Below are positions 8,618 through 16,826 of a stretch of DNA of 64,000 nt, piece after piece. A model generated the notes under the pieces. The model saw nothing but the letters and a program-made list of their open reading frames with translations. It was not told where the DNA came from and made no database searches. A program made the position numbers and the translations under genes. This DNA is from Corallium rubrum (lineage: Eukaryota > Cnidaria > Anthozoa > Scleralcyonacea > Coralliidae), in assembly GCA_964035015.1 (NCBI GenBank), contig OZ036014.1, positions 2,283,701 through 2,347,700 of the forward strand, in the 5' to 3' direction. The stretch's first letter is position 1. The number at the start of each line of letters is the position of its first letter.

Positions 8618-11600
8618 TCACTCTACGGAGTAACTCTCCTGCAAAAAATAAACGCAAAAGTGTCAGTTAGTACAGAATAAGAAAAAAGTGTCAAGCAACT
8701 AACCAGTATACAGCTTGAATATACACTCCATAATTCACTCAATTTTTTGTAATTAATTGAATTATTTTTTTCGTAATTAATTGAATTATTTTTTTCGTAA
8801 TTAATAATATACATGAAAAATTTCTCAATTCTGATTGGCTGAGAGGAGTGCAATTTTAGTGTAATTCAGTGCAGACGAATGAAATACAGTGCAAATTTTT
8901 TAATTTTTTAAATTTGCACAAAAATCATTTTTTACTAGAAAAAAAGCTCTTCCTGTTAGGTTTTTTTCATGTATGTTATTTGAACAAAGCATTTTGATTA
9001 GAAAGATTCTCTTTATGATAAATTTTTTCATGTAAATTATTAATAAGTAATAGCATGGTTTCGAGTGCAATTTGAAAAAAACACGCACTCGTGAGTTTTT
9101 CAAAGACCTCAAATAGCACTCGTCCTTCGGACTCGTGCAATTTTCATAGTCTTTGAAAAACTCACTCGTGCATGTTTTTTTTTCCAAATTGCACTCGAAA
9201 CCATGCTATTACCTATACTAATTGAATTATTTTTTTCTGTAATTAATTGAATTATTTTTTTCTGTAATTAATTGAATTAATTTTTTCTGTAATTAATTGA
9301 ATTAATTTTTTGTAATTAATTGAATTAATTTTTTCTGTAATTAATTGAATTAATTTTTTTGTAATTAATTGAATTAATTTTTTGTAATTAATTGAATTAA
9401 TTTTTTGTAATTAATTGAATTAATTTTTTGTAATTAATTGGATTACAGGGTGTTTATGCAGGCTGTGCACAAGCTAAGGAGAAAGTTGAATTATATTAAA
9501 TTTAGATTATTTTGTATCGGACCATTTGAATATTTTTTTGAATTTTAAACAATGTTTCTTTACCTGAGGGATCGAGCATCTGTTGTGCGCTTTATCTTTG
9601 TTCATTCTGCAAAACCTACAACATTAAAACAGAAAACGTTAGGATTAGTAGATTGACCTATCGAAACCAAACAAACAACTAATTGGCCAATATGACTTGC
9701 AAACAAGCCAGTGCAAATCGAACAACAATTCGTATAATTAACAAATAGATTACATTTTTCCGCGCGCGTGCACTGTCATAGGGAGTTAAAAAGCATCATA
9801 AATTCTGAAAAACGTCACGCTTAACTAACTATTATATTTGATATTTGAAGCTAGCTTAATGACTTTTAAAACGTCCCAGTACTGCTAAAATGATTGTAGT
9901 TTCTGTATTAAAGTCAATCTCAAGCAACAGTTCTCATCTTTTGGCCGTTGACGTCGTCCTGAAGATGTGAAAATGCTCTAAGTGGCGTTGTATAAAGAAC
10001 GAGGACGGTGTTGAGATATTCTAGGGACGAAAAATTATTCATTCTCTTTGTTTCGCAACTAGAATTCTTTTGTTTAAACGACGTCGTCGTTTAAGTTGCC
10101 ATCGTAGTTCGTGATTTGAACCTCGCTAACATTAGAGACTGTACACTTCCACTACCGCTACTGCTACCGTGAATGTAGTTAAGCTGATGTAATGTTCGTT
10201 TTTTCGTTCTGTAGTCGTAGTTGGTTTTAATCCTGGTATCGTAAAACGCTTTCTTTTTGCACTAGGTTTGAGACCTGCGACCATTACTGAACGTAAAAAC
10301 AATATTTGACATGCTTAATTATATTTACGGTAGCGGTAGCGGTAGTGTGATCTGAACCTCGCTAATAGATCACAGATGACGGCATAGCGTATAAAGAACA
10401 AAAAGTACGACACGCGAGACGAAGTCGAGTGGCGTGACTGTTGTTCTTTACACGCTGTGACATCTGTGATCTATTACAGTACACTCTCACGGAAAAATGT
10501 AATCTATTTGTTTTATACAATAAAAATCCAAGTGGTTTATTGAAGGAGGCGTGAAAAAAGAAAAACAGGTCTGCTGACGTGATCTGATGTGGATCTGACG
10601 CCATCTGTGTGTGTATAAAACTGAATAGACAACAAAAAACGGAATCTATTTGTTTTTATACAATAGAAAAATTTAAAAGGTTTTTATCGAAACTCTTGCC
10701 GGATTTTGGGGCATGAAGAAAGAAAAAAGAAATCAGCTGACGTGATCTGACGTGTCCATGTGTCTGTCCTCTAATAGATCATTGGCCAACAGCCAATAAA
10801 AATACACACACAAGTCACGTTAAAATACTCATTAATAATTCATGACGAAAACAAAAGAAATCAATACCGTAGCAGTGGTTGTAAATCGGATACAGCATCG
10901 TCCTGATTTACATAAACTTTAGCTTCGATTTTCTCGGCTAAAACAGACCGTATCCCCAAAGTAGTTGGTGAACTTGATTACTTGGATGCATTTGTATTTT
11001 AAGAAAGATACAGCATTCGCAGCCAAGCTGTATCTGATTAACTACGGCTCGTTTGCAACTCACCTTGTAAATCAGATACAGTTCGGCTGCATGCTCATTG
11101 CTGTATCTATTACTTAAGCCCCGGTCAAACGAGGATGAGAGTTGATGAGAGTTGGCAAGCGAGAGTTTGTCTGAGAGTTTTCTCAACTCTCATGCCCCGG
11201 TCAAACGAGGATGAGAGTTGACGAGAGTTGTAGGATTTACCGCGCGTAGCAGGGAGACTAGGAACGAATTTCGAGGTAAACAAAGTTCGTATTTTTACAA
11301 TCTCGTACTGGACAAATAAATAGACAGATATATTTTGCATTCTTGCCTTTTCTTGTCACGAAAAGTCACGAATACAGTCTTTTCTAGCCGCTAAACTCTC
11401 ATCAACTCCCATATGCCAACTCTCATGACCGGTCAAACGAGCAAAAACTCTCATCAACTCTCATTAAAAAATTTGAACCAGCTCAAAGTTGATGAGAGTT
11501 GATAAGAGTGCATGAGAGTCGATGAGAGTTGGTGGTCAAACGCGACCGAGAGTTGCAACTCTCATCGACTCTCATCAACTCTCATCCTCATTTGACCGGG

Positions 11601-16826: not shown

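Follow-up and report, generated by a model that had tools for sequence, protein, structure and literature searches.

A candidate HLH, HMG-box and CW zinc-finger protein of Corallium rubrum and its possible likeness to the meiotic regulators STRA8 and MEIOSIN

To our knowledge, a helix-loop-helix (HLH) and an HMG box are found in one protein only in STRA8 and MEIOSIN, both of which are meiotic. STRA8 is described, in the part of the account cited here, as comprising a putative bHLH, a glutamate-rich stretch and a putative HMG box; promoters account for 84% of its binding, and the motif that it uses is CNCCTCAG (PMC6392498). MEIOSIN has bHLH and HMG domains, and the CNCCTCAG motif, which is not an E-box, is common to STRA8 and MEIOSIN, according to an excerpted source that treats as unsettled how the two act at promoters (PMC9604137). 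Conservation is held to be weaker for the regulation of meiotic initiation than for the chromosomal events of meiosis (PMC6392498, in excerpt). A different group of proteins has the CW zinc finger, a reader of histone H3 methylated at lysine 4 (H3K4me). The CW finger of MORC4 is a strong H3K4me3 reader (Kd about 0.1 uM), and H3K4me3 is also bound by MORC3 and not by MORC2, as given in the cited portion of PMC7596504. The third residue of the methyl-lysine cage varies: it is W303 in ZCWPW1, F78 in ZCWPW2 and E453 in MORC3 (PMC9043364, cited in part).

In Corallium rubrum, a gene that may bring these domains together lies in a 64,000-nucleotide stretch of contig OZ036014.1 (contig positions 2283701-2347700; the window, to whose numbering all coordinates below refer). 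Six minus-strand exons between positions 16826 and 8618, rebuilt from the sequence, join in phase to give 749 codons followed by TGA. This is the gene structure proposed in a sequence-only reading that preceded our analysis, and it is borne out: the borders are GT-AG at all five introns, the phases after exons 1-5 are 1, 0, 2, 2 and 0, and the donors of introns 1-5 agree with MAG/GTRAGT at 7, 7, 8, 7 and 7 of 9 positions. A score of at least 7 of 9 is reached at 14 of the 391 GT sites on the same strand between 8600 and 17000. At the 5' end two short exons, exon 1 (16763-16826, minus strand; start codon 16826-16824; donor 7 of 9) and exon 2 (16310-16374, minus strand; donor 7 of 9), are placed by splice signals and frame, not by homology. 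Exon 3 (13147-14960, minus strand; 604 codons plus 2 nt; donor 8 of 9) houses both the HLH segment and the HMG box. Exons 4 (11634-11867, minus strand), supported by the splice model and Pfam, and 5 (9564-9615, minus strand) carry the first and second parts of the CW finger, and exon 6 (8618-8638, minus strand) supplies codons 744-749 and the stop. The large simple repeats of introns 2 and 3 could mislead an assembly, but exon 3 is open over its full 1814 nt and every junction is in phase; that the locus is a pseudogene or an assembly artefact is thus extremely improbable.

The join between exons 3 and 4 decides whether the CW finger is part of the same protein. The frame of exon 4 has no ATG from its upstream stop to the CW domain, so this exon must be spliced to an upstream one. 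Eleven ATG frames lie within intron 3; none of them has a GTRAG donor in the phase that exon 4 needs, though a few have weaker GT sites. Because of these two observations the CW exons most likely belong, as judged from splice signals and frames, to the HLH-HMG gene, and a separate CW gene was rejected on the same grounds. Two genes, one for HLH and HMG that stops in exon 3 and an independent one for CW from exon 4 on, would agree with the fact that the exon 3 donor, when not used, leads at once to an in-frame stop, a TAA within the donor itself (13143-13145, minus strand; open frame 13143-14960). However, this donor matches 8 of 9 positions and is in phase, and with the paucity of starts for exon 4 the two-gene arrangement is very unlikely. 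Within a single gene the same stop has another consequence: since it lies in the donor, retention of intron 3 could yield a shorter protein that ends after the HMG box and lacks the CW finger.

The CW zinc finger (PF07496) was matched by residues 700-744 with an E value of 8e-16 and 58.2 bits against a curated cut-off of 27.5. The match covers profile positions 1-46 of 47 and runs unbroken from exon 4 into exon 5; by itself, exon 4 matches positions 1-27 with 33.4 bits, while the joined 58-residue segment reaches 65.1 bits. W701, C704, C707, W710 and W726 are encoded in the first part (11634-11713, minus strand), and C728 and C739 in exon 5. All four zinc cysteines (C704, C707, C728 and C739) are therefore kept, as are the structural tryptophan and two cage tryptophans (W701, W710 and W726 being present), which upholds the earlier description of a finger with its four Cys and Trp residues intact across two exons. 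The closest PDB sequence to the CW segment is MORC4 (E 6.4e-12), followed by MORC3 and ZCWPW1. In the alignment with ZCWPW1, residues 1-46 of the query pair with residues 18-65 of the 2e61 chain, of which chain position 18 is W256 in the numbering used in the cited part of PMC9043364. On that numbering Y746, encoded in the last exon, aligns with chain position 65, which is W303 of ZCWPW1; its correspondence to F78 of ZCWPW2 and E453 of MORC3 is by count, one position past the aligned stretch. By the same partial source, all three cage positions are filled, by W701, W710 and Y746, and because they are filled the predicted reading of H3K4 methylation, also put forward earlier, is strengthened. 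We regard it as likely that the CW finger is an H3K4me reader.

The HMG box (residues 570-621; 13227-13382, minus strand) matched PF00505 at E 5.2e-6, above the curated cut-off: 27.2 bits with the whole protein against 25.4, and 33.7 bits with the HMG segment alone. A structural model of the segment has three helices, with a mean pLDDT of 71. When the model was searched with Foldseek, 96 matches were found at E up to 10 and none at E 0.001 or better; the best 50 of the 96 are HMG-box chains or complexes, the complexes being, we presume, ones that contain HMGB1. Between the HLH segment and the HMG box is a low-complexity linker rich in Lys, Ser, Asn and Glu, part of which (13521-13732, minus strand) is expanded by tandem repeats.

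The HLH segment (residues 253-306, with a zipper-like helix after it; 14172-14333, minus strand) has weaker matches. No HLH family was matched by the whole protein in Pfam at E up to 1, nor did the general HLH model PF00010 match the protein; on an approximate STRA8 stretch, PF00010 scores 17.9 against a cut-off of 20.7, likewise below. A 75-residue segment matched bHLH_INO2 at E 0.013 and bHLH_ILI at E 0.016, both under the curated cut-offs (16.1 vs 23.4 bits and 16.0 vs 27 bits), and these two bHLH families are the only Pfam families at E < 0.1; RRM_1 was also matched, at E 0.2. With a 96-residue segment the two E values were 0.022 and 0.029. Among the best 12 PDB sequence matches of the 75-residue segment, the top 8 are MAX, at E 0.028 to 0.12; a longer query of 383 residues, from the HLH to the HMG box, found MAX in the PDB only at E 0.52 to 0.61. 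When the segment was shuffled ten times, a family of some kind was matched at E up to 1 by four of the shuffles. The lowest E value among them was 0.018, for an unrelated family, so the E value alone is no proof of an HLH; none of the ten matched a bHLH family. It is the identity of the matched families, rather than the E value, that makes an HLH probable. The single-sequence AlphaFold2 model shows a helix, a loop and a long helix (mean pLDDT 70), with low confidence in helix 1, and a Foldseek search with this model gave no PDB match. At what we take to be the position of the E-box glutamate of MAX, counted back along the MAX alignment, the HLH segment has an arginine, and hence E-box binding by the segment is not expected.

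These data bear directly on an alternative in which the gene encodes an HMG-CW chromatin protein unrelated to MEIOSIN and STRA8, a general architectural factor directed by H3K4me3, with a chance bHLH-like helix and a coiled coil in the place of an HLH. The marginal E values, with a similar value in one of the ten shuffles, would fit it, as would the want of a fold match for the HLH model and the result with PF23175 (bHLH_STRA8), the Pfam model of the STRA8 bHLH, which did not match the segment at E up to 10. Nor did BLASTP align the protein with an approximate mouse STRA8 stretch. However, both families below E 0.1 are bHLH families, the leading PDB sequences are all MAX, and no shuffle drew a bHLH family, and we consider this alternative less likely than not. 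On balance, it is somewhat more likely than not that all three domains are present in one protein. Of the earlier claim of an HLH, an HMG box and a CW finger together, then, the last two stand above the Pfam cut-offs, and the HLH falls below its cut-off while being likely.

Searches of the 474-Mb assembly (312 contigs) went exon by exon, so domains split between exons can be missed. One GFP-family match (E 1.7e-8) was listed; its frame reads by eye like a GFP-like protein of an anthozoan, which fits the coral source. At an E threshold of 0.001, four places with a CW match were listed: the HLH-HMG-CW gene, L001, L002 and L004. L001 and L002, which are loci separate from the gene, have PWWP-like sequence near the CW, as seen by eye. 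Exon 3 gave 11 matches in the genome, namely itself and ten others (best E 0.007), all ten within the linker (query 374-493). With the HMG segment, besides the self-match, two matches were obtained, at E 1.37 and 9.29, the first in a frame that looks HMGB-like by eye. PF23175 had two matches in the genome, at E 8.24 and 9.49, neither over the cut-off; in a control, one sub-cut-off match was seen among 14 genomes. One of the two matches in the coral genome, L016, was rejected as a STRA8 bHLH, its frame reading like a retroelement protein. The part from the HMG box to the CW finger (192 aa) was also compared with prokaryote and virus contigs, where 71 and 29 stretches matched by pattern and tblastn found no relatives among them; as these collections hold prokaryotes and viruses, the scan says little on relatives. 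Among the matches listed from the open-licence literature, judged by title and the start of the abstract, none deals with MEIOSIN in invertebrates or with a protein that combines HLH, HMG and CW. The gene may already have an automatically assigned name in another catalogue.

The other CW loci are relevant to a further alternative, that the HLH-HMG-CW protein is real and is a lineage-specific fusion, made within the coral's animal group, that has no meiotic role. Because CW occurs elsewhere in the genome, near PWWP-like sequence at L001 and L002, source exons for shuffling exist, and in the gene the CW finger is on exons of its own. The only proteins we know to unite HLH and HMG are, on the other hand, the meiotic STRA8 and MEIOSIN, and a fusion of this kind is rather improbable.

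Several repeats and possible coding regions were noted in the window. A tandem repeat of the CCATACCATACA type, about 1 kb long (15224-16290), occupies most of intron 2, and a CTTT/CCCT simple repeat (12082-12443) lies within intron 3. Downstream of the gene, some 2 kb away, lies a long tandem array (1-6704) whose unit recurs about every 174 bases, with variants close to 210. A plus-strand frame at 7440-7679 contains what looks like a transmembrane segment and matches Myc target protein 1 below the cut-off (E 4.7e-5). At 45249-48947 one coding sequence is present in two long inverted head-to-head copies, the minus copy being split over two frames; they read by eye as a reverse transcriptase of the Penelope type with a GIY-YIG-like end, and have no significant Pfam match. 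Minus-strand frames at 54738-58824, with an ankyrin match over the cut-off and an acyl-CoA-binding match below it, are perhaps one ACBD6-like gene, and a minus-strand frame at 62216-62407 has a CCCH zinc-finger match below the cut-off and looks makorin-like by eye.

The reading that we favor, with a probability of roughly 45%, is that the gene encodes a promoter-binding factor that resembles MEIOSIN and STRA8 and contains a reader of H3K4 methylation. It is favored because the protein, with its probable HLH, has the domain order described for STRA8 and because E-box binding is not expected. In this scheme a single gene would give rise to a nuclear factor that dimerizes through its HLH, binds DNA through its HMG box and binds H3K4me through a C-terminal CW finger. 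The HLH would pair the factor with another HLH protein, and the HMG box and CW finger would jointly hold it at promoters already bearing H3K4me3. At those promoters it would act like the STRA8/MEIOSIN pair, raising the transcription of meiotic genes. Retention of intron 3 could add a version of the factor that does without the CW finger. The likeness claimed is one of architecture, not membership in MEIOSIN; a likeness to MEIOSIN and STRA8 in kind is put forward tentatively, and a role in meiotic entry, suggested by analogy, more tentatively still.

If the favored reading is true, a non-vertebrate relative with an H3K4me3 reader ties a meiotic factor directly to active promoters, and it sets a minimum age for the STRA8/MEIOSIN system. 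The reading can be tested in corals or in Nematostella. It could be taken further: an early-branching animal may have a meiotic-entry factor of the MEIOSIN/STRA8 type that itself reads H3K4me3; the vertebrate pair would in that case be derived, having lost the CW finger, and promoters for meiotic entry would once have been chosen by direct reading of H3K4me3. We regard this extension as doubtful.

Compared with known CW proteins, the coral finger resembles those of MORC4 and MORC3, its best PDB sequence matches, in having two cage tryptophans. However, Pfam finds no ATPase in the coral protein, and the third cage residue is Tyr, unlike Glu453 of MORC3 (numbered as in the cited part of PMC9043364). 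In having an aromatic third residue the finger is like those of ZCWPW1 (W303) and ZCWPW2 (F78), known here from the same partial source, although Pfam lists no PWWP in the coral protein. Compared with MEIOSIN (BHMG1), the coral protein has a C-terminal CW finger, of which there is none in the cited part of the MEIOSIN description (PMC9604137), in agreement with the earlier remark that vertebrate MEIOSIN does not include one; what the two would share is an HLH, probable in the coral protein, and an HMG box in one polypeptide. Compared with STRA8, the coral protein has a CW finger added and no match to PF23175, and its linker is rich in Lys, Ser, Asn and Glu rather than being a run of Glu. The earlier comparison with MEIOSIN and STRA8 thus fails for the STRA8 family model and holds for the order of domains: the probable HLH, a charged low-complexity stretch and the HMG box follow one another as they do in STRA8 (PMC6392498, in excerpt). 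Moreover, the arginine at the presumed E-box glutamate position of the coral HLH segment agrees with the binding of STRA8 and MEIOSIN, as described in the excerpted sources, to CNCCTCAG, a motif other than the E-box.
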